From NCBI GenBank assembly GCA_031256675.1, contig JAIRQC010000043.1:1-43940 (forward strand): a DNA stretch of 43,940 nucleotides. Reading direction: 5' to 3'. The notes below the pieces were generated by a model that had not been told where the DNA came from, ran no database searches, and was given only the letters and a program-made list of their open reading frames with translations. Positions 1,214 through 42,771 of this stretch are shown here, in pieces. Origin of the DNA: Rikenellaceae bacterium. Its GTDB lineage: Bacteria > Bacteroidota > Bacteroidia > Bacteroidales > Rikenellaceae. Position 1 is the stretch's first letter. The number at the start of each line of letters is the position of its first letter. A program made the translations under genes and the position numbers.

Positions 1214-1244
1214 CAAATATAATAAAAATTGCGCACGCAGCAAA
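1214..1244 (-). promoter_or_regulatory. Bacteroidota-type promoter of tRNA-Arg
   Basis: On the minus strand TTTG (1244-1241), a 19 bp spacer and TATATTTG (1221-1214) match the -33/-7 consensus exactly. Transcription would start 10 or fewer bases before the tRNA 5' end at 1199. Confidence 0.85.
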
Positions 1245-15898: not shown

Positions 15899-15930
15899 CA
15901 AATGTACGAAATCTCCGACAGAACGTCAAA
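15899..15930 (-). promoter_or_regulatory. Promoter of exbB-exbD
   Basis: On the minus strand TTTG (15930-15927), a 20 bp spacer and TACATTTG (15906-15899). The leader to ATG 15884 would be only about 8-11 nt. Confidence 0.75.
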
Positions 15931-30816: not shown

Positions 30817-33800
30817 TTACTCCACCTTTATGTTCCGCCCTTCGGTGTTTGCCCTGACGGTGTGGTCGTACATCGCTTCGGCGCTGATTGGCGGCAGGTA
30901 GAACAGGCCGGGATAGACGGTGCAGAGGTTGACGCGCAACGTCACCTGACGGCCCGACGGCAGACGGTCGATGTAGCTGTACACCCTGTCGTCGCGAATA
31001 TCCTGATAGTTAACCCCGTCCGGATACCTGTCCGTCGACTCGCCGTCGGTGAAGCGGGTGTTGAGTATCTCCCAGCCGGAGGGGAATATCTGCGTGACGG
31101 CCACGTTGTTGTAGCTTTTGGGCGAGGGGTTGCGCACGGTGGCGACGGCGGTGAAGTTGACCCCCTGGCCGAGCGCGTCGACCGCTACCGGACGGCCGCT
31201 GCGGTCGAGGTATGATACCGTGACGGTCAAGCCGTTGGCGTAGGCCCTCTCCTCGCCCTGTTCGGGTATGCCCTCGGCTATTATGCGCACGAACTCGGTC
31301 GATCCGGAGGTGTTTTTCAGCTCTACGGCCACTTGTTTGGCCCCCTTGTCCAGCAACTGGCGGCTCCAGAGGCTGTTGCCGACGCTGACCCTGTCCTTTG
31401 CGCTGCCGCAGGAGTAGGAGAACTCCAGGTTGCCCGATACCTTGTATTTGGCCATGTATCCGGCCATCGCCATCAGGCCGTAGGCGGTGGTCTGCGTGCT
31501 GTACCACTCCTCCGTTGCGAAGGCCTTCGAGATGGCGCGCGCCTGTTCGGCCGCTTCGGCCCCCCTGTCCAACATGCATAGCGTTTGGAGTATGACCGCC
31601 TGATCGCGCAGCGAACTGCCGAAAGTCATGTCGTACTCGTTGTAAGTTTCCGCCTCGACGCCGACCGTGCGCGTGGCGAGCTCCGTAGCGACCTCCTTGC
31701 GACCGGCTTTGGCGTATGCCATCGCCAGCATCCAGCGCGAGGTCTGCGAGAGGTTTTTGCTCTCTTTCAGACGGTTCATTGCTCCCAGCTCGGCCGAACC
31801 GCCCAGCGCGAGCACATAGAGACGGTAGGCCTGCGTGGCCTCCTCCGAGCGGGCGTAAGATCCCCCGCTGGAGGGTTTCCAGTTGCGTGCCACGCGGCGC
31901 AGATAGCCTGTCAGGCTGGTTTTCATCTGCGAGGGCACCGAAAATCCCTTCGCCTCGGCTTCGCACTGGAAATGGGCGGCGTAGGTCGATCCCCAGCTGT
32001 GCGCGTCGCTGCCTCCGGGCCAGTAGCTCATGCCTCCCTCGCCGGTCTGATAGGTGCGCTGGCGGCGGATGACCTCCTTGACGGCCTCCTCGACGGTGGC
32101 GCTCTGCTCTTTGGTCAGCGTGGTCAACTCTTTGAGATAGAGCTGCGGGAAGCCTTTGGATGTGATCTGTTCGATGCAGCCGTGGGGGTAGCCGATCAGG
32201 TAACCGAGGCGCGAGGCAAGGTTGAGCGGCTCGACGTTGGACACTTCGAGGGTCAGCTTGTTGGTGCCGTCGGCCCCGGGCATGGCGACGTTCTGGTTCC
32301 AGCTCTCGCCCGGTTTCAACGTGAAGGCCGTGACGCGGCTCTGCGGCAGGCGCACCGAACGGATCTCGATGTCGGTTTCATACGTGCTCTTGTCGCCTTT
32401 GGCGGAGGCTGTTATGGTTACGTGCCCCTTGCCCTGCCTGCCCGTGACGCGGATGCGGAAAACGGCCTGCTTGTCGTCGCGCTCCTTGAAGTTGAGCGTC
32501 TGTTTGGCCGGGCCCACAATCTGCATGTTGTCCGAGCAGCTGATGGCCACCTCTACCGGCCCGACGTTGTTTTCGGTGGCGAAGACCGTCGCCGGCGCCG
32601 ACATCTCCTCTCCGAGGCCGATCACGCGCGGCAGCGTGCCGATCACCATCACCGGCTTGCGCACCGTCACGCTCTTTTCGGCATTGCCGTAGGCGCGTCC
32701 GTTGCCCGCGACGACCATCACGCGCACGCGGCCGTTGTAGTTGGGCATATCGTACTTGTGACGCGCCTTGCCGCCCTTTTTGAGCAGGAACGGCCCCTCG
32801 AACTTCACCACGGGCGGAAAGCGGTTGACGATCGCCTTCGGGCTGCCGGCAATAGCATCGTCGCCGCCGATGCTGAACAGCTGCTCAATGCGCCCGCCGT
32901 AGGCCCCGACTATGTAATTGTATAAATCCCATGTGTTTACGCCCAACGCTTCGCGGGCGTTGAAGGCGCGCCACGGGTCGGGGGTCTTGAAGCGCGTCAG
33001 GTCGAGCAGCCCCTCGTCGACTATTGCCAGGGTGTAGGCCATCTCCTGGCCGTTCTTCTCGCTGACGGTGATTTCGTACTTGCTTTCGGGCTTGATCTCG
33101 TCCGGCGTGCCGATGACCGGGGCCAGATGGCTCTCCTCCGAGGTAACCACCACGGGCGTAACGCCATACATACGTATCGGCATATCGTTGAGCGTCTGGG
33201 CGTGGGGCTGGAGCAGCGTTATGTAGAGATATGCGTTGGGCGTCATCTCGGGCGTAGCCTCGATCTTGATGACGGTCTCCTTGTCCTTGCACTCGAAGTC
33301 CTTGACCGACAGAACTTTCGACCCGTTCTGCACGGCTACCACTGCCCGGCTGCCTTTCGACGAGGGGATGGTTACGCTGATCTTCTCGCCGGGTTTGTAA
33401 CTCTCTTTGTCGGGCTTGAAACTGAGCAGTGTAGCCCCGTTGGAGCCCTCGTCGCTGCGGCTGTGGCCGTATGGCCAGTCGAAGTAGCTCACCACGCCGG
33501 TCGAGTGGCCGCCGGAGACGTCGCTGACCTGAATAAAGTAGGTTCCCCACTCGTTATTGCCGAACTCAAGGTCGAATTTGGCCTCGCCGCTGCGCGATGT
33601 GGTGAGCGTGAAGGTTTTGACGTGCTTTGCGCCGCGGTCGGAGATGTAGCTGGCCAGCGAACTGCGGTCGGACGACCACCACCAGTACCAGTCCATTTTG
33701 TAGACCTCTACGCGCAGGTCGACATCGCGCTGCGGTTTGCCGTCGTAGTCGACCGACGCCAGTTTGTAGGTATGGCTGCTGCCCGTATTGAGCTGTTCGC

Positions 33801-36513
33801 GATCTTTCTGCGGCGAGAGGATGCCCACATACCGCCGGTACGGAGAGAATTTCATCGAGAAAGCGTCCATGCTGAAATCGCCGCTCTGCTCGAAGACGCG
33901 GGTGTTCATCGTGGCCAGCAACATGCCCGGCGCAGCGTCGGCGTCGGGGTTGAATGCGGTAATGTTCACCGCCCCCGTAATGGTCGTCGCCGTGACGTCC
34001 GGCCCGTCGACAACCGCTTCATCTTCATCTGCGGGCTCTTCCGGTACGGTCGGCACGGACGCCTGGTTGTCGCCCAGCCTGATGAGCGCGTTGCCCTCCG
34101 CGTCGGTCGAGCCGTTGATGACGAGGCTCCCCTCGTCGGAGAAGCTCTTGATCGGGTCGTCGAAAACGTAACCCTTGTACTCTGCAAACGAGGTCGGTAT
34201 GGAGGCGAACGACGTTGCGATCTCGTAGCGCAGGTTGCGCGCCGTGGCTCCCTGCAACCACTCGACGTGCATCCGCGCCTGGCTCTGCCGTCCCCGCACA
34301 AGCAGCGGATCGTCTATCTTGATGTTTATTTTCAGCCTGTTGGGCTTGATGGTCTCCACGCGGATACGCTTTTCGAACGTCACGCCGCCAACGTGCACCT
34401 TGACGTTCCACGCGCCGGTGGGGGCCTCGGGATCGGTGGGGAAGCTGAAAGCGTACACGCCCAGTTCCCCGCGAGTGGCAGTACGTGTGTGTACCATCTG
34501 GCCGAGGGGATTATAGAGCTCCATCGTCACCGGATGGTCTGCGGGCAGCGTGCCGAGACGGTCGCTGAGCATGAAGCCCAGGTGCAACTCGTCGCCCGGC
34601 CGCCACACGCCGCGCTCGCCATATATAAAACCCTTCATACCCTTGTAGATCACCTCGCCCGACACGTCGAACGAGCTGAGCGACAGCGACGAAGCATTGT
34701 CCACACGCAGGTAGCCGCGCTGCGGGCCCTGCGAGGCGACGATATAGAACGGACGGCCGCCATTGACCGCTATCTGCGCATATCCCTCGTCGTTGGTCAC
34801 ACTCTCGCCCATGAGCTTGTTCTGGTAGTTGAACAGCCTGACCGTCACATCCTTTTCGGGCTTGGTCGAGAGCAGGTTATGCACCAGCACCGTGTAGCCG
34901 TCGGCCTCGCCCGCCATCGCTATCACCCCGAGGTTCGATGCCATCACGTTGCGCACCGGACTGCTCGTGGCGCGGTAATAGGTTTCATGGCAGGGGTTGT
35001 CGCGCTGGTTATAGTCGTAATCGTAATAATAGTCTTCGTCATCGTCCGAATAGTAGTAGTAGCCGCCGCGGTCAAGACGTTCGCTCTCCTCGCGGAACAG
35101 CCTCTCGTCGCGCGCCTCGATCTCGCGTCTGGACATCTGGCGGAACGCAGGTTCGTCGTCGGAATTTGAACCCTCGCCGCACTGGTAGGCCGACAGCTGC
35201 CTGTCCATCATCAGATAGATGCGGTATATGGCCCCCGGTTCGGGCTGCATGAGGGTGTTCAGGTCGATGGCGTAGGTGTTGAGCTGCGTAAGGTCGACGG
35301 TTGGATCCTCGTCGAGGAAGATGGTCTTGCGGGCCACAAGCCTGCCGACGCGCATCAACTCGGACGAGCCGTCCAACTGGTTGATTTGCAGGAACTGGCC
35401 GATGTTCTGCTCCATGATCTTGATCACCTTCACCGTCACCCCGCGCAGGTAGACCGCCTGGAACGGGATGTTCAGTTTGTCGGACTGCGGGATGATCACC
35501 CCGTTGCCGATGAAGTTGACGCTCGGCGTGGTCTCGCCCACGTTCACGACATAAGAGCCGCCCTCGGAGAGCGTCTTGCCGTCCTTGCTGTTTATCGACT
35601 TGTCTATCGTCACGGTCAGGCTGCCCGTGCGCCCCTCGTCGGGGTAGAGGAAGATTTTGTTGCCCTCGCGACGCACCACCTCCGAACGGTTGCCGACGAT
35701 GTTGGCCAGCCCCGTCAGGATCTGCGAGGCGTTGAGCGGACGGCTGAACGTCGCCACGATGCGGCGTTCCGGCGTACCCTGGTACTCAACGCTGTACACG
35801 CTGAAATCATCCTTTGCGGGCACGACGACGTCCAGCAGGCTTCCGCGCTCGAGGCCGAAGTTGTTGCTTGCGGCGCTCAACGACAGGTAGCGCGAGGCAT
35901 TATGCGGCTCGACGCCCTGCAACGTCGCCTCGTGCTTGCGCCCGTCGGCCGAATGCGACCAGACCACCGTCGCCTTTTCCGACAGCTCGACCAGCTTCTC
36001 GATATCCTCCGGCGTCTCGCTGTCGGCCGTAACCAGCGTGGCCACAATATCATAGTTTTCCGCATTCTCGCCGTTCACGTCGAGCGAGGCCAGATGAGCC
36101 CTCACCGCAAAGGGCAGCGTCGTGAAGCCGAACGTGAAGGTACGCTCGTCGTCCCTGACCTCGCCGAAGAGCTTGCCCACATCCATTTTGACCGTGTACT
36201 GCGCGTCGCGTTTGAAACCGTTTTTGGGGCGGAACGTTATGGTGCGTCCGTCGTCGGACGAAAATTCGCCCTCGACCGACGGCTTGATTTTCACTATGTT
36301 ACGCAGCGACTCATCATTGAGCGCCTCGGCGGGCAACTCCTTGCTCATCACGATGCTCATCGGGGCGTGGCGCGAGATCCTGCCCGCCGTAAATGCCTCC
36401 ACGTATGGGTTGTAGGCCACGGCGAGCTGTTCGCCCGACCCTTTTGTCCCGCAACCGGCCAACGTCATGGCTGCAAGCGCGGCAACGGAAATGAGGTACG
36501 AGATTCTTTTCAT
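30817..36513 (-). CDS. Alpha-2-macroglobulin family lipoprotein with thioester
   Basis: A 1898-residue protein. The signal peptide MKRISYLISVAALAAMTLAGC has a lipobox (Cys21), so it is membrane-anchored in the cell envelope. MG-type beta domains follow, with a bait-like region and the A2M family stretch FKTPDPWRAFNAREALGVNTWDLY. The thioester motif GCIEQ has its Cys at ~1446, followed by the helical thioester domain (MSYWPGGSDAHSWGSTYAAHF). Bacterial A2Ms trap foreign proteases, usually with PBP1C, whose gene is 2.5 kb away here. An unusual Tyr/Asp-rich stretch lies at ~475-505. The frame extends 24 codons upstream, but ATG 36513 gives the lipoprotein signal. Upstream only a weak -7 box (TATCTTTA, 36550-36543) is seen. 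Confidence 0.93.
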   Translation of the reverse strand: MKRISYLISVAALAAMTLAGCGTKGSGEQLAVAYNPYVEAFTAGRISRHAPMSIVMSKELPAEALNDESLRNIVKIKPSVEGEFSSDDGRTITFRPKNGFKRDAQYTVKMDVGKLFGEVRDDERTFTFGFTTLPFAVRAHLASLDVNGENAENYDIVATLVTADSETPEDIEKLVELSEKATVVWSHSADGRKHEATLQGVEPHNASRYLSLSAASNNFGLERGSLLDVVVPAKDDFSVYSVEYQGTPERRIVATFSRPLNASQILTGLANIVGNRSEVVRREGNKIFLYPDEGRTGSLTVTIDKSINSKDGKTLSEGGSYVVNVGETTPSVNFIGNGVIIPQSDKLNIPFQAVYLRGVTVKVIKIMEQNIGQFLQINQLDGSSELMRVGRLVARKTIFLDEDPTVDLTQLNTYAIDLNTLMQPEPGAIYRIYLMMDRQLSAYQCGEGSNSDDEPAFRQMSRREIEARDERLFREESERLDRGGYYYYSDDDEDYYYDYDYNQRDNPCHETYYRATSSPVRNVMASNLGVIAMAGEADGYTVLVHNLLSTKPEKDVTVRLFNYQNKLMGESVTNDEGYAQIAVNGGRPFYIVASQGPQRGYLRVDNASSLSLSSFDVSGEVIYKGMKGFIYGERGVWRPGDELHLGFMLSDRLGTLPADHPVTMELYNPLGQMVHTRTATRGELGVYAFSFPTDPEAPTGAWNVKVHVGGVTFEKRIRVETIKPNRLKINIKIDDPLLVRGRQSQARMHVEWLQGATARNLRYEIATSFASIPTSFAEYKGYVFDDPIKSFSDEGSLVINGSTDAEGNALIRLGDNQASVPTVPEEPADEDEAVVDGPDVTATTITGAVNITAFNPDADAAPGMLLATMNTRVFEQSGDFSMDAFSMKFSPYRRYVGILSPQKDREQLNTGSSHTYKLASVDYDGKPQRDVDLRVEVYKMDWYWWWSSDRSSLASYISDRGAKHVKTFTLTTSRSGEAKFDLEFGNNEWGTYFIQVSDVSGGHSTGVVSYFDWPYGHSRSDEGSNGATLLSFKPDKESYKPGEKISVTIPSSKGSRAVVAVQNGSKVLSVKDFECKDKETVIKIEATPEMTPNAYLYITLLQPHAQTLNDMPIRMYGVTPVVVTSEESHLAPVIGTPDEIKPESKYEITVSEKNGQEMAYTLAIVDEGLLDLTRFKTPDPWRAFNAREALGVNTWDLYNYIVGAYGGRIEQLFSIGGDDAIAGSPKAIVNRFPPVVKFEGPFLLKKGGKARHKYDMPNYNGRVRVMVVAGNGRAYGNAEKSVTVRKPVMVIGTLPRVIGLGEEMSAPATVFATENNVGPVEVAISCSDNMQIVGPAKQTLNFKERDDKQAVFRIRVTGRQGKGHVTITASAKGDKSTYETDIEIRSVRLPQSRVTAFTLKPGESWNQNVAMPGADGTNKLTLEVSNVEPLNLASRLGYLIGYPHGCIEQITSKGFPQLYLKELTTLTKEQSATVEEAVKEVIRRQRTYQTGEGGMSYWPGGSDAHSWGSTYAAHFQCEAEAKGFSVPSQMKTSLTGYLRRVARNWKPSSGGSYARSEEATQAYRLYVLALGGSAELGAMNRLKESKNLSQTSRWMLAMAYAKAGRKEVATELATRTVGVEAETYNEYDMTFGSSLRDQAVILQTLCMLDRGAEAAEQARAISKAFATEEWYSTQTTAYGLMAMAGYMAKYKVSGNLEFSYSCGSAKDRVSVGNSLWSRQLLDKGAKQVAVELKNTSGSTEFVRIIAEGIPEQGEERAYANGLTVTVSYLDRSGRPVAVDALGQGVNFTAVATVRNPSPKSYNNVAVTQIFPSGWEILNTRFTDGESTDRYPDGVNYQDIRDDRVYSYIDRLPSGRQVTLRVNLCTVYPGLFYLPPISAEAMYDHTVRANTEGRNIKVE

Positions 36514-36573
36514 AAAATTTTTATGGCGTCTGATTTTTGCGATAAAGATATGAAATGTTTCATAAATAGTTGC

Positions 36574-36581
36574 TATATTTG
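36574..36581 (+). promoter_or_regulatory. -7 element for the small exported-protein operon
   Basis: TATATTTG, 28 bp before ATG 36609. No TTTG lies at the -33 position. An inverted repeat ATGAAA-TG-TTTCAT (36550-36563) covers that region and could be an operator between this promoter and that of the divergent macroglobulin gene. Confidence 0.5.
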
Positions 36582-36608
36582 ACACAAAATTTCACCTTAT
36601 TGAATAGT

Positions 36609-37193
36609 ATGAAAAGAAAAGCACGGCTGTTGCTGGCCTTTCTGACCGTAACTGCCGCCGTTTCGGCGCAAAACGCCACTGTACAGGCGGAACCCGAGTA
36701 CAAGAGGGTTATCGCGAGGGAGTTCGCCGAGTTCCAGCGGCTGATCGCCGAACAGCAGTTCGAACGGGCGATGGATTACATCCCTGACGAACTGTTTGCC
36801 GTCGTGCCGCGCGACACGCTGATCATGGCCATGAAACAGATGTTCGACGACCCCGATGTGGAGATCAAACTCGACAGTGTGAAGCTCGTTTCGATTGGGG
36901 ACGCGCAGTTGGTCGAGGGAAAATATTTAGTCCGTTTCACCTACTCCTACCGGATGAGTATCAGGCTCGAGGCTGACGGGGAGACGGTCGCCATGTTGAA
37001 GTCGATCTACAACAACATGTTCGGCGAGGACAATGTAACATACGACAAGCGCAGCGGATCTTTCGAGCTCGCGCCCGTCAGGTCTGCCATCGCATATTCC
37101 ACGGACGGAACGGCAGACGCGACGACCAGGTGGAAGTTCCTCAACAACGAGAAGGAACAACTCGAAGCGCTGAAACTGTTCATATCCGAATAG
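36609..37193 (+). CDS. Hypothetical exported protein
   Basis: A 194-residue protein with signal peptide MKRKARLLLAFLTVTAAVSAQ (Ala-Gln cleavage likely). I do not recognise a family. The mature part is helix-rich at first (REFAEFQRLIAEQQFERAMDYIPDELFAVVPRD), followed by a beta-rich half (VEIKLDSVKLVSIGDAQLVEGKYLVRFTYSYRMSIRLE) and ends in KWKFLNNEKEQLEALKLFISE-like sequence. The layout resembles small periplasmic cystatin/NTF2-like folds, which is only an impression. The frame opens 13 codons earlier, but ATG 36609 matches the signal peptide and the promoter. It is followed by three paralogous lipoprotein genes. Confidence 0.75.
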   Translation: MKRKARLLLAFLTVTAAVSAQNATVQAEPEYKRVIAREFAEFQRLIAEQQFERAMDYIPDELFAVVPRDTLIMAMKQMFDDPDVEIKLDSVKLVSIGDAQLVEGKYLVRFTYSYRMSIRLEADGETVAMLKSIYNNMFGEDNVTYDKRSGSFELAPVRSAIAYSTDGTADATTRWKFLNNEKEQLEALKLFISE

Positions 37194-37287
37194 CTGCTCC
37201 AATAAGTTCCGGAGGCGGAACAGTCCCGACCGTTGCGCCGGACGCATCGTCAAACGACCCTGAACACCTGATCCTCATAAATTGGAA

Positions 37288-37686
37288 ATGCCGAACATCC
37301 TCGCCGTTTTATCAACCGTTGCGCTGCTCACGGGCTGCCTCGGCGACATTGCCGACCGGCAGATCGCCCGCGCCGCCGCAGAGGTAAACAGCGAATGCCC
37401 TCAGATCGTCGACAACGACATGAGGCTTGACAGCGTCGCCGCCGCGCCGGGCCGCCGGCTCCTCTACTACTTCACGCTGCCCCGCCTCGCAACGGAAGAG
37501 ATCGACGCGGCGGCTTTCGACAGCATCAGGCGGGCAAACGCCATCTCTTTCCTGCGCGAGAGCGACAACCCCTACCTCGCCCTGCTGCACGTGGGCGGGA
37601 CGACGTTCTGCTATCGGGTTCGCGACAGGAACGGCCTGCTGTTCTGGACGTTGGACATAACTCCGGAAATGTATAAAAAGAATTGA
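37288..37686 (+). CDS. Small lipoprotein, paralog 1 of 3
   Basis: A 132-residue lipoprotein (MPNILAVLSTVALLTGC, Cys17). It shares with the next two genes the pattern: Ala-rich helix, N-x2-CP, VD-x-(D/E)-(M/T)RLD, P-G-(R/K)-(R/K)-L-x-Y-x-(F/Y)-T, FLR, then YR-x-RD-x-NG and W-x-LDITPEMY. Shared Cys38-equivalent (ECP) is conserved in all three. The function is unknown; the pattern suggests a small secreted alpha/beta domain. An in-frame TTG two codons upstream was not used. It has no separate promoter and likely follows the gene at 36609 in one operon. Confidence 0.78.
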   Translation: MPNILAVLSTVALLTGCLGDIADRQIARAAAEVNSECPQIVDNDMRLDSVAAAPGRRLLYYFTLPRLATEEIDAAAFDSIRRANAISFLRESDNPYLALLHVGGTTFCYRVRDRNGLLFWTLDITPEMYKKN

Positions 37687-37688
37687 TA

Positions 37689-38105
37689 ATGAAACATGCC
37701 TTTATTTTTCGTCTTGCGCTGCCTGTCACCCTCGCCGCCGCACTCGCAGGGTGCAGTCGGGATGAGGTAATGCTGCTTAACGCCGCACGGGAATTGAACA
37801 GTTACTGCCCGATAATGATAGACAGGGACACGAGGGTGGACAAAGTCACCGCAATGCCGGGCAAAAAGCTGATCTGCCACTATACGCTGTTAAACCGTGA
37901 ATGGGACGGCGTCGACGCCGACAGCGTCGCCAGGAGCATCATGCCACAGATATTCAACCACGTGCGGACGAGTCCCGACATGGTATTCCTGCGCGAGCAT
38001 AACGTCGCCTTTGTCTACCGCTACCGCGACATGAACGGCCGGTCTGTCCTGAAACTCAGCATTACGCCCGACATGTACAAATATCTCGCGCCCCGGAACG
38101 GATGA
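37689..38105 (+). CDS. Small lipoprotein, paralog 2 of 3
   Basis: A 138-residue lipoprotein (signal ending LAAALAGC, Cys22) starting 2 bp after the stop of paralog 1. Family features: ARELNSYCPIMIDRDTRVDK, PGKKLICHYTL, FLREHNVAFVYRYRDMNG and LSITPDMYKYL. It differs from the others by W/LKLSI replacing the W-x-LD core and lacks the acidic C-terminal tail of paralog 3. Function unknown. Confidence 0.8.
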   Translation: MKHAFIFRLALPVTLAAALAGCSRDEVMLLNAARELNSYCPIMIDRDTRVDKVTAMPGKKLICHYTLLNREWDGVDADSVARSIMPQIFNHVRTSPDMVFLREHNVAFVYRYRDMNGRSVLKLSITPDMYKYLAPRNG

Positions 38106-38126
38106 GCTTCGCCTGACCGAAATTAT

Positions 38127-38157
38127 TTTGCCGTTTGAGAATTATTCGTTATGTTTG
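38127..38157 (+). promoter_or_regulatory. Promoter of lipoprotein paralog 3
   Basis: TTTG (38127-38130), exactly 19 bp, and TATGTTTG (38150-38157): a full consensus match. The leader to ATG 38180 would be about 16-19 nt. It shows that paralog 3 can be expressed separately from paralogs 1 and 2. Confidence 0.8.
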
Positions 38158-38179
38158 TCCGACAAAATCCCAAACTCAA

Positions 38180-38635
38180 ATGAAACCGATTAAATTCATC
38201 TGCATCGCGGCAGCCGTGGCCCTCGCCGGATGTCTCACCGGCAACATGCTTGACAAGGCGCTGATCAAGGCAGCCGAAGAGCTCAACAAGAACTGTCCAT
38301 TCATGGTCGACAGCGAGACGCGGCTCGACAACGCCATGGCCCTGCCCGACAAGAAGCTGGTCTATTTCTACACAATGGTCAATTACGTCAAAGACGAAAT
38401 CGACGTAGACGTTTTCGCCGAGAGCATGACCCCGACCATCATCAACGCCGTGAGCACCAATACGAGCATGGAGTTCCTTCGCAAACAGAAAGTTACGTTC
38501 AGCTACCAGTACAAGGACAAGAACGGCGAATTTTTCTGGACGCTCGACGTAACGCCCGACATGTACGAAAACCATGTTCCCATTCCCGTCTTCGAAGAAG
38601 CGGCCCCTGCGCCGGACACAACATTGACGCTCTGA
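38180..38635 (+). CDS. Small lipoprotein, paralog 3 of 3
   Basis: A 151-residue lipoprotein (MKPIKFICIAAAVALAGC, Cys18). Family features: AAEELNKNCPFMVDSETRLDN, PDKKLVYFYTM, FLRKQKVTFSYQYKDKNG and FFWTLDVTPDMYEN. A C-terminal acidic/Pro tail (VFEEAAPAPDTTLTL) is unique to this copy. The frame extends 15 codons upstream, but the promoter and lipobox fix ATG 38180. Function unknown; see the finding on the triplication. Confidence 0.82.
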   Translation: MKPIKFICIAAAVALAGCLTGNMLDKALIKAAEELNKNCPFMVDSETRLDNAMALPDKKLVYFYTMVNYVKDEIDVDVFAESMTPTIINAVSTNTSMEFLRKQKVTFSYQYKDKNGEFFWTLDVTPDMYENHVPIPVFEEAAPAPDTTLTL

Positions 38636-39036
38636 AAGGGCGGCAAGGAGCGGCAAGGAGCGCTAAGAGGGGCTAAGAGGCAAAGAGCGGCAAGGGGAGA
38701 CAAGGGCGCTAAGAACGGTAAGGAGAGGCAAAGAGAAGCAAAGAGCGCGCCAAACCTGATTTCAACGTCGTCGCGAAGGCGGCGATTCATTGTAGGCGGT
38801 GCGAAACGGTTCGGATTCTCCGGACTGTTTCGCACCGCTTGCAATGAGGGGGGACAGGTGGAGCGTCGCAATGACGGGGGCGCAATGGCCGGAAAACGCA
38901 ACATTTTATGAATTTTTGTCATCGCGACGGACGAAGCCACGAACCCTGAAACCCCGAAATTCCGAGGCGATTATGTGCAGGGGAGGAAGCGGAAAAAGCG
39001 CAACACGTGGAGCATAAGGTTTTCGACGAATAACCA
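38636..39036. repeat. Gene-free 401 bp: purine-rich repeats, hairpin, dispersed repeat
   Basis: 38640-38752 is a purine-rich strand made of degenerate ~10-12 bp units around GGCAAGGAGC, GCTAAGAG and GGCAAAGAG. It is followed by a 12 bp stem hairpin (GCGGTGCGAAAC, 38796-38807 with 38827-38838) and by 38822-38849, which matches the dispersed repeat at 23494-23521. The rest up to the pbpC stop holds nothing recognisable. Confidence 0.65.
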
Positions 39037-41430
39037 TTACTTTACATCGAAAGTTATTTTTCGGCTGTTGCCCCGCTCGTCGGTGAGCGTCAAAAGATGC
39101 TGTCCGGGACGGACGGTGCAGACCAGATGGTGGTCGCCGGTGGTTTTGGATATGTACCGGTCGTCGACGTGCCAGAATATCGTGGCCCCGGGGCGGGTGT
39201 GGGCGGCGCGGAAGATGAATTGCTGCTCGCCCGCGAAACCTTTTGGCAGGAACAGCGCCGCCCCGTGCTGCGGGTAGATGATCTCGATCTGGCTCCCTGC
39301 CGTTTCGCGGCATCCGGCTTTGAGTGGCGGCAGCGGACGATAGTCGATATGGTAGTTGCGGTAGTAATACTCCTGCGCCGACGGCAGCACGAACCAGCTG
39401 CGCGAGACGATGTCGGCGACCGCCTCGCACGAACTGTCCACCCGCCGGCTGCCGTCCGCCGAGAGGTGTACGAGCCGGTGATAGGGACAGACGGCCGTGC
39501 CGATACCGCTCAGGGGCATGGCCAGCGTGTCGACATGCTCGCAGAGGTCGGAGGCCTTGTGGCCGCTCTCGCGACAGAGGGCCATCGGTTCGAGTTCGTC
39601 GTGCGGCGGTTCGAACCACCCTCCCGACGGCAGCAGCGAGAAGACGTCGAACAGCACGGGAGCGGCATAACCTACCCCCGTCAGCCCCGGACGCCCCTCG
39701 CCCGAAGCGTTGCCGACCCACACCCCTACCACATGGCGCGGCGTAACCCCGACAGCCCAGCCGTCGCGCCCGCCAAAACTGGTGCCGGTCTTCCACGCCA
39801 CGCGCTTCATGGAGCCGAACTGCTGCCAGTCGGCCTCCTCCTCCGGACGGTTGAGCCCCGACATCGCCTCGAAGGCGAACCATATCGAGGCTGCCGACAG
39901 TAGCGGTTCGTCGGTGAGCCTTTCAGGCGGGACCGCCGTCATGAATGGGGTCAGGGGGCGTATATCCGCCTGATCGTAAAGGCCCTGATGGCCGCGGTAA
40001 TGGTTGAGCGCGCGGGCCAGCGAGGCGTATATGCCCGCTATTTCGTCGAGCCGCCCCTCGGCCCCGCCGAGGATCAGCGCCGCGCCGTAATGATCTTCCG
40101 AAAAGGGCAGAGTGGTCATCCCCAGCCGTTTGAGCAGCGTGAGGAAACGCCCTGTATTGTAGGTCGAGAGCATCCGCACCAGCGGCACGTTGAGCGACCG
40201 TTCGATAGCCACGCTCGCCGGAACCGCCCCGTAGTAACTGCGGTTGAAGTTCTGCGGGGCAAAGCCGTTGATATTGAGCGGCGTGTCGGCAATTAGCGTC
40301 GAGGGCAGTATCTGCCCGTCGCCAAGCATCGCCGCGTAGAGCAGCGGTTTGAGGACGCTGCCCGTGCTGCGCGGCGAGGAGATCACGTCGACGCTGTTGC
40401 CCCGCTCGACTTTTTGCAGCCCTTGCGGGGCAGGCTGCCGTGCGGCGGGGCTTTGTCCCGCCGCATCATACCCTGCCGAATTGCCGACGTAGGCCAGAAT
40501 GCGCCCCGTCTCGACCTCGGCGACGATTGCGGCAAGGTTGTAGATGTGGTTGGCGACGGCGTAATCGTGCGAATATCTGTTGACTATGTGTGCTGTTTGC
40601 TGTTGCAGTCGCACGTCGAGCGAAGTCTGCGACCGCTCGCCGGAGGGCAGGCGGTCGAGCAGGTGCGGGGCCATGTCGGGCAGCGGCACGGGGGCGTCGG
40701 GCAGCGGCTCGATGCAGGCCAGCCGGAGTTCGGTCGCGTCCAGCAGTCCGCGATGACAGAGGCGGGTCAGCAGTTCGTTTCGTTTGGCGAGCAGCGCATC
40801 GCGATTGCGTCCCGGGTGGATCAGCGCGGGGGAGTTGGGCAGTATGGCCAGCGTCGCCGTCTCGGCCCACGACAGGTCGAACGAACTGCGGCCAAAGTAG
40901 CGCCATGCCGCCGTTTCGAGCCCCACGACATTGCCCCCGAACGGCGCGTGCGAGGCGTAGAGGTTGAGGATGGTGCGTTTGCTGCATGTGGTCTCGATAT
41001 GGAGCGCCCAAAGCGTCTCGACACCCTTTTCGTATATGCTGCGGTGGCGGTTGCCGCGGGCGATGCGCGCCAGCTGCATGGTGATGGTGCTGCCGCCGGA
41101 GACGGTGCGCCCTGCGTTGATATTGAGCCGCAGGGCCCGCGCAAGGGCCAGCGGGTCGACCCCCTGATGATAGAAAAAGCGTTTATCCTCGTAGGTGGTC
41201 AGGCAGTCGACAAACCGTCGGGGCAGAGAGTCCGACGCAGGAAATCGCCATTGTCCGTCCGAAGCGATGCGCGCTCCCAGCAACTGCCCGTCGCGCGCAT
41301 AAAGCAGCGAGGAGTAGGGCGACGTGAACAGCCTGCGCGGCACGACAAGGAACATCGCCCCCCACGCGACAAGCAGCAGCCAGAGGGGGGGCAGCAGTCG
41401 ACGAAGCCATTTGCTTTTTCCTGACGGCAT
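39037..41430 (-). CDS. pbpC: Penicillin-binding protein 1C (bifunctional peptidoglycan synthase)
   Basis: A 797-residue membrane-anchored protein (helix PPLWLLLVAWGAMFLVV). The glycosyltransferase 51 domain has TYEDKRFFYHQGVDPLALARA (catalytic Glu), GGSTITMQLAR and RSIYEKGVETLWALHIE. The transpeptidase domain has RSTGSVLKPLL (active-site SxxK), ERSLNVPLVRML and KTGTSFGGRDGW. A C-terminal PBP1C domain covers the last ~90 residues. PBP1C polymerises and crosslinks peptidoglycan and in many bacteria is linked to A2M, thought to repair the wall after protease attack. The frame extends to 41601, but MPSGKSKWLRR at 41430 follows the promoter directly. The mRNA may be nearly leaderless. Confidence 0.94.
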   Translation of the reverse strand: MPSGKSKWLRRLLPPLWLLLVAWGAMFLVVPRRLFTSPYSSLLYARDGQLLGARIASDGQWRFPASDSLPRRFVDCLTTYEDKRFFYHQGVDPLALARALRLNINAGRTVSGGSTITMQLARIARGNRHRSIYEKGVETLWALHIETTCSKRTILNLYASHAPFGGNVVGLETAAWRYFGRSSFDLSWAETATLAILPNSPALIHPGRNRDALLAKRNELLTRLCHRGLLDATELRLACIEPLPDAPVPLPDMAPHLLDRLPSGERSQTSLDVRLQQQTAHIVNRYSHDYAVANHIYNLAAIVAEVETGRILAYVGNSAGYDAAGQSPAARQPAPQGLQKVERGNSVDVISSPRSTGSVLKPLLYAAMLGDGQILPSTLIADTPLNINGFAPQNFNRSYYGAVPASVAIERSLNVPLVRMLSTYNTGRFLTLLKRLGMTTLPFSEDHYGAALILGGAEGRLDEIAGIYASLARALNHYRGHQGLYDQADIRPLTPFMTAVPPERLTDEPLLSAASIWFAFEAMSGLNRPEEEADWQQFGSMKRVAWKTGTSFGGRDGWAVGVTPRHVVGVWVGNASGEGRPGLTGVGYAAPVLFDVFSLLPSGGWFEPPHDELEPMALCRESGHKASDLCEHVDTLAMPLSGIGTAVCPYHRLVHLSADGSRRVDSSCEAVADIVSRSWFVLPSAQEYYYRNYHIDYRPLPPLKAGCRETAGSQIEIIYPQHGAALFLPKGFAGEQQFIFRAAHTRPGATIFWHVDDRYISKTTGDHHLVCTVRPGQHLLTLTDERGNSRKITFDVK

Positions 41431-41437
41431 GACGGGG

Positions 41438-41468
41438 CAAAGATACGATTTTGAACGCGCCCTGCAAA
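41438..41468 (-). promoter_or_regulatory. Promoter of pbpC
   Basis: On the minus strand TTTG (41468-41465), 19 bp, TATCTTTG (41445-41438): an exact consensus match. The -7 box ends 7 bp before the ATG at 41430, so transcription would start at or within a few bases of the start codon. Confidence 0.78.
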
Positions 41469-41603: not shown

Positions 41604-42710
41604 TTATGCCAACTCTGCTTCAGCGTATTTCAGCCCGAAGGTGTCGGCGACGGCCTTGCAGGTGACCCTGCCTTTGACGACGTTCAAGCCGGCTTTCAGG
41701 CCGGGATGTTCGGCGCAGGCCCTCTGCCATCCCATGTCGGCCAGCGCGACGAGGTAGGGGAACGTGGCGTTGGTCAGGGCCAGCGTGGAGGTCATCGGCA
41801 CCGCCCCCGGGATGTTGGCCACGCAGTAGTGTAAAACGCAGTCGACCATATAGGTCGGGTCGGCGTGGGTGGTGGCGTGCGACGACTCGAAACATCCGCC
41901 CTGATCGATGGCCACATCCACAAGCGCCGAGCCGGGTTCGAGCAGTTTGAGCATCTCGCCGGTTATCAGGTAGGGGGCTTTGGCCCCTGGGATCAGCGCC
42001 GCCCCGACCACCAGATCGACGCGCGGAAGCATCTGCTCGATGTTGTAACGGCTCGAGAACATTGTGTCGACGTTGGCGGGCATAATCTCGCTCAGATAGC
42101 GCAGCCGCGGCAGCGAAACGTCCATAACCGTGACGCGCGCGCCCAATCCGGCAGCCATGAACGCTGCCTGCGTGCCTACAACGCCGCCGCCGAGGATCAG
42201 TACGCCGGCCAGCCTCACCCCCGGAACGCCGCCCAAAAGGATCCCCTTGCCCCCTTGCGGCTTTTCAAGATATTTGGCCCCCTCCTGTACCGACATGCGC
42301 CCGGCAACCTCCGACATGGGGACCAGCAGCGGCAGCGTGCGATTGTGTTCGACCGTTTCGTAAGCTAGGCAGACAGCCCCCGAAGCGATCATCGCGTCGG
42401 TCAGAGAGCGATCGGCGGCGAGATGGAAATAGGTGAACAGCAGCTGGCCCGGGCGTATCAGCGGGTACTCGACGGGAATGGGCTCCTTCACCTTGACAAT
42501 CATATCGGCAACGGCGAAGACCTCCGCTGCGGTGGGCAGGATGGTCGCCCCTGCCTTGATGTAAGCCTCGTCCGGAAAGCCGCTGTTGCGTCCGGCATTG
42601 GTTTCGACATAGACGGTGTGTCCGCCGTGGACGAGCGCCTGCGCGCCCCCGGGCGTCAACGAGACGCGGCTCTCGTTGTTTTTGATCTCGCGTGGGATAC
42701 CGACCTTCAT
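41604..42710 (-). CDS. ald: Alanine dehydrogenase
   Basis: Interconverts L-alanine and pyruvate plus ammonia with NAD. The 368-residue protein begins [20 protein letters not shown] (substrate Arg15), with VKVKEPI (Lys75) and FHLAADRS (catalytic His96). The NAD domain has [21 protein letters not shown], and [12 protein letters not shown] carries the conserved Asp. Length is typical. It is transcribed divergently from the methyltransferase-like gene and has its own promoter. Confidence 0.96.
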
Positions 42711-42738: not shown

Positions 42739-42771
42739 CAAATATACGCATTATTTGATTATAATTCCAAA
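42739..42771 (-). promoter_or_regulatory. Promoter of ald
   Basis: On the minus strand TTTG (42771-42768), a 21 bp spacer and TATATTTG (42746-42739). Leader of about 22-25 nt to ATG 42710. Confidence 0.7.

Follow-up and report, generated by a model that had tools for sequence, protein, structure and literature searches.

Tandem triplication of a small lipoprotein with the predicted fold of AspS and PA3611 in a Rikenellaceae bacterium

Results

Three paralogous lipoprotein genes

The window analysed in this study is the whole stretch of 43,940 nucleotides taken from contig JAIRQC010000043.1 of a Rikenellaceae bacterium. Within it, three adjacent genes on the + strand encode paralog 1 (37288–37686, 132 amino acids), paralog 2 (37689–38105, 138 amino acids) and paralog 3 (38180–38635, 151 amino acids), with 2 bp between the first and the second gene and 74 bp between the second and the third. 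The original prediction of three adjacent lipoprotein genes of 132–151 amino acids is borne out by the open reading frames, each of which carries a lipobox (LLTGC, ALAGC and ALAGC, respectively). Degenerate, purine-rich short repeats resembling GGCAAGGAGC directly follow paralog 3, at positions 38636–38760.

When paralog 3 was used as the query of its own genome, paralog 2 was matched at 4e-30 and paralog 1 at 4e-25, and no match besides these two was found. The three proteins can be aligned end to end, with identities of 37–44% by pairs, and a maximum-likelihood tree of 41 domains drawn from the whole phylum places them in a single clade with a support of 96/90. The branch of paralog 3, the least diverged copy, is the shortest (0.32 changes per column), followed by those of paralog 2 (1.02) and of paralog 1 (1.46), the most diverged copy. 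Since the copies share one clade and differ in branch length, they have arisen in this lineage and diverged unequally; paralogs 1–3 have come from one small lipoprotein by lineage-specific tandem triplication, in line with the old duplication that had been proposed from their divergence. By significant mutual similarity and a common clade, the three paralogs and their relatives make up one domain family. The motif order described earlier as common to the three is kept in all of them, but the motifs themselves are loose in paralog 1 (EVNSECP, DNDMRLD and PGRRLLYYFT), which is without FLR at the aligned position. The family had also been described as unnamed, and indeed searches of Pfam, NCBIfam, PHROGs, PADLOC and PDB sequences with its window proteins gave no significant match, and neither did the phage records searched.

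Exact matches to the Bacteroidota −33/−7 promoter consensus occur five times in the window (1214–1244, 15899–15930, 38127–38157, 41438–41468 and 42739–42771) against 0.12 expected by shuffling, all of these being consensus matches only. The last three directly precede paralog 3, the PBP1C gene pbpC and a gene on the − strand at 41604–42710, respectively. The match ahead of paralog 3 (+ strand) reads TTTG-N19-TATGTTTG and, in Bacteroidota terms, agrees with the claim that this copy has its own promoter. No exact match was found before the first of the four consecutive + strand genes to which the lipoprotein genes belong.

This first gene (36609–37193, + strand) encodes a protein of 194 amino acids with a signal peptide and no lipobox, as expected from the earlier description of a fourth exported protein preceding the three. 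It belongs to an undescribed Bacteroidota family and has no match in Pfam, and its single-sequence fold is poor (pLDDT 56). The idea that it is a diverged fourth lipoprotein copy was rejected, as it is without homology to paralogs 1–3. Its relatives are scattered over 11 of the 247 sampled genomes (10 of 246 besides its own); two of these (G340 and G423) carry both this family and the lipoprotein family, with the two genes far apart in each. The suggestion that the four genes constitute one module is contradicted by these relatives, and the 194-amino-acid gene is outside any conserved module with the lipoproteins.

Predicted fold of the mature domain

The mature domain of paralog 3 was modelled with AlphaFold2 from an eight-domain alignment, which gave a mean pLDDT of 90.2 and the order of elements H-EE-HH-EE-H. 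In a Foldseek search of the PDB, the model matched PA3611 (3npd) over the whole domain with an E value of 1.9e-6 and TM scores of 0.70/0.80, AspS (4ftf) at 3.7e-5 and its orthologue EpsS (6i2v) at 2e-4; these three matches below 0.001 represent one fold, and a fourth match, to AspS in its complex with GspD (5zdh), was obtained at 0.096. Nothing below 0.001 was found in the viral fold library. According to the model, the mature domain has the fold of PA3611 and of the AspS/EpsS pilotins.

AspS and PA3611 have a common fold and disulfide, and a hydrophobic crevice has been proposed as the secretin-binding site (PMC3542185), while EpsS grips a short secretin helix with its sheet and helix 2 (PMC6532946); pilotins of the AspS fold thus hold a short secretin helix in a hydrophobic pocket (PMC3542185, PMC6532946). 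For PA3611, in turn, secretion and an action on epithelial cells have been reported (PMC8860233), which means that a clamp role does not necessarily follow from the fold.

At the level of sequence, PA3611 gave a sub-threshold match in a register consistent with the fold match. The P. aeruginosa protein resembles the window copies in predicted fold and in being exported, but the identity is 15%, and PA3611 is without a lipobox and possesses a disulfide (PMC3542185). Regarding QSregVF (PF13652), the window domain has the predicted PA3611 fold, whereas the model itself did not match the window copies and matched one of 21 members at 0.005. DUF4854 (PF16146) gave matches in four of the 21 members scanned, the best at 0.0012, all below the curated cut-off, and the window copies were unmatched. 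The profile match to E. coli YghG fell short of significance, with an hhalign probability of 2% and with 83 of 1940 shuffles scoring as well as the real comparison. A member from Cupriavidus, tried as a sequence bridge to AspS, gave an alignment that is suggestive only, with an E value of 0.006 when the two were compared singly and of 1.1 in a search of the PDB; a tblastn search with this member found only Cupriavidus. The cysteine pair of AspS (disulfide Cys74–Cys111) is absent from the window copies, which have one conserved cysteine in a different column. Two cysteines in the disulfide columns of AspS and PA3611 are present only in distant members (Cupriavidus L015 and L096–L098), and because these stand at the positions expected from AspS, common descent of the domain and AspS is plausible.

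Distribution and architecture of the family

With a profile of 11 members, the domain was found in 28 of the 295 genomes of the order and in 18 of the 247 genomes sampled from the phylum. Among the close relatives of the genome studied here it is present in four of 61 genomes, this one included, whereas in another Bacteroidales family (f20) 86 of 101 genomes carry it, with up to six domains each, and several of them have copies that are adjacent or fused. Members are also located on Cupriavidus megaplasmids and on a Methylotuvimicrobium plasmid. Tandem duplication has occurred both between genes (L011, L205 and L206) and within genes (L013, L065, L077 and others), and since adjacent, fused and intragenic copies recur, it can be regarded as a habit of the family.

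Many members have a lipobox, others have one N-terminal transmembrane helix and a few have several (L014, L085 and L086). From these architectures, the domain appears to be nearly always exported and membrane-tethered, that is, held by the membrane outside the cytoplasm. A few members (for example L074 and L077) are listed without a visible anchor, possibly owing to wrong starts. Five members (L012, L064, L068, L069 and L082) carry a zinc ribbon and one transmembrane helix ahead of the domain, a fusion that suggests a protein reaching from the cytoplasm to the periplasm.

The window lipoproteins and type II secretion pilotins

The window copies and the AspS/EpsS/YghG pilotins of type II secretion systems (PF16549) are alike in being small lipoproteins with the same predicted fold, a likeness that invites the view that the former are true pilotins of a secretin. 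The two groups differ, however, in several respects: the family occurs as tandem or fused copies in mostly secretin-free carriers, its similarity in sequence is not significant, and the disulfide retained as a cysteine pair by distant members is missing from the window copies. The T2SSS_2 model (PF16549) left the window copies unmatched at E values up to 1, with the E. coli YghG control at 1e-16. Secretins (PF00263) are absent from 34 of the 44 carriers, that is, from 33 other genomes and from the present one, which is 82% complete, so that the absence there is weak on its own. Co-occurrence with a secretin as a general rule was accordingly rejected. As secretins are lacking from these 34 carriers, the lipoproteins are not considered to be type II secretion pilotins, and we regard a role as true pilotins as extremely unlikely.

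The neighbourhood of A2M and PBP1C

The four + strand genes sit between two genes on the − strand, both identified by domain models: that of a bacterial α2-macroglobulin (A2M; 30817–36513), the translation of which contains the thioester motif GCIEQ, and pbpC (39037–41430). The set is transcribed divergently from A2M and convergently with pbpC. The original prediction took A2M and PBP1C to be normally adjacent and codirectional, which holds for most cases outside the bacterium's own family; among the own-family genomes with A2M beside pbpC, seven of eight have the two genes head to head, with 116–313 bp between the aligned ends. Here (30817–41430 of the window), pbpC is flipped relative to most of these relatives and the four opposite-strand genes separate it from A2M, and the simplest reading of this placement is a local inversion plus an insertion.

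It had been proposed that the lipoproteins are envelope factors that join A2M and PBP1C in countering proteases and wall damage. In favour of this are the placement of their genes between those of the pair, seen in this genome alone, a Dysgonomonas locus with pbpC nearby and the lipoprotein gene of genus g146, which adjoins an NlpC/P60 wall hydrolase. The genes nevertheless diverge from A2M and converge with pbpC, and conserved linkage was not found. Among the 44 genomes bearing the family, pbpC (TIGR02073) is absent from 18, is either on a different contig or separated by hundreds of kilobases in 25 and is adjacent only in the present one. A2M was found in none of 46 neighbourhoods of the lipoprotein family and pbpC in one, that of Dysgonomonas sp. 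216, where it lies about 7 kb off; because five unrelated genes intervene, this was judged to be a coincidence rather than real linkage. None of ten other genomes of the bacterium's own family carries the lipoproteins, although nine of these carry pbpC. Homologues scattered without linkage, which had been named beforehand as the outcome refuting the proposal, are therefore what was observed, and a joint role with A2M and PBP1C is now very improbable. The lipoproteins and the A2M/PBP1C pair are physical neighbours in this contig only, without conserved linkage and without homology; the neighbourhood is an accident of local insertion or inversion and does not represent a functional system.

Conserved neighbours in other carriers

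Clustering of the 46 neighbourhoods revealed no common partner beyond single genera, and an operon conserved across genera was observed in family f20 only. At 12 loci in four genera of this family (L189–L199 and L207), the lipoprotein gene is followed by a GYF_2–CD225 gene and mostly then by CD225 and DUF2752 genes; the gap after the lipoprotein gene is mostly 11–15 bp, and some loci are without one later gene. A thirteenth locus (L080) keeps the GYF_2 neighbour. The operon is usually downstream of a dGTPase-like gene. In genus g41 (L200, L203 and L204), a gene for DUF805, a small membrane protein, stands about 20–30 bp after the lipoprotein gene, and in genus g146 (L077, L205 and L206) a double-domain gene adjoins that of the NlpC/P60 peptidoglycan hydrolase. 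The window contains no CD225/DUF2752, DUF805 or NlpC/P60 genes, and a literature search found no paper joining CD225 and DUF2752. From gene order, these neighbours may be taken as leads to the client of the lipoproteins.

The lipoprotein could accordingly be a periplasmic subunit of a membrane assembly of the CD225/GYF_2/DUF2752 type, with a distant set of these proteins as the target of the window copies. The tight operon of family f20, the retention of GYF_2 at the thirteenth locus, the DUF805 gene in genus g41 and the layout of the members with a zinc ribbon and a transmembrane helix, which resembles that of such proteins, are consistent with this arrangement. On the other hand, these partners are absent from most other neighbourhoods and from the window, and synteny inside a single family can persist through inheritance without reflecting function. 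We consider this reading to be rather unlikely as it stands; it is compatible with the clamp role discussed below, for which it names the client.

Discussion

To our knowledge, the AspS/PA3611 fold has so far been found in only a few Gammaproteobacterial proteins, which are either associated with secretins or reported to be secreted. What is new here is a structural identity, given by the predicted AspS/PA3611 fold, for an undescribed lipoprotein family.

The interpretation that we tentatively prefer, while giving it somewhat less than an even chance, is that the triplicated lipoproteins are tethered clamps of pilotin fold for a hydrophobic segment of an envelope client, with the A2M/PBP1C placement being accidental. 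As the lipoboxes suggest, the exported proteins would be held on the membrane by their lipid, and, by analogy with pilotins, the domain would open its sheet and helices and clamp a hydrophobic segment of the client, which would not be a secretin; the clamp would serve the transport, folding or stability of this client. Paralogs 1 and 2 are far more diverged than paralog 3, which also has its own promoter; for these reasons, the three are likely to serve clients that differ in identity or in regulation.

The recurrence in the family of tandem arrays with fast divergence might also be expected of immunity or decoy lipoproteins, the diverged copies of which would neutralize toxins or phage proteins in the periplasm, and paralog 1 weakly, although not significantly, matched the model of a putative T6SS immunity lipoprotein (NF045617; E value of 0.053 and 13.6 bits, where the cut-off is 43). 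The compared loci have no toxin or secretion neighbour family in common, however, and PADLOC gave no match, while in family f20 the gene is vertically retained with conserved synteny; an immunity or decoy function hence appears very improbable.

If the tethered-clamp interpretation is extended beyond this genome, the lipoproteins would represent a Bacteroidota-wide, undescribed pilotin-fold family that escorts or clamps non-secretin membrane proteins, including CD225 (IFITM-like) and DUF2752 proteins, and in which client specificity has been spread by repeated tandem duplication, a broader proposal that we put forward as speculative and unlikely in its full extent.

In conclusion, this study reports a tandem triplication of a small lipoprotein and assigns a predicted fold to its family. 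A common, tethered and often duplicated domain of this kind in secretin-free Bacteroidota suggests a wider binding domain for which the piloting of secretins is just one special use, and a nameless family thereby gains a structural identity as well as testable partners.
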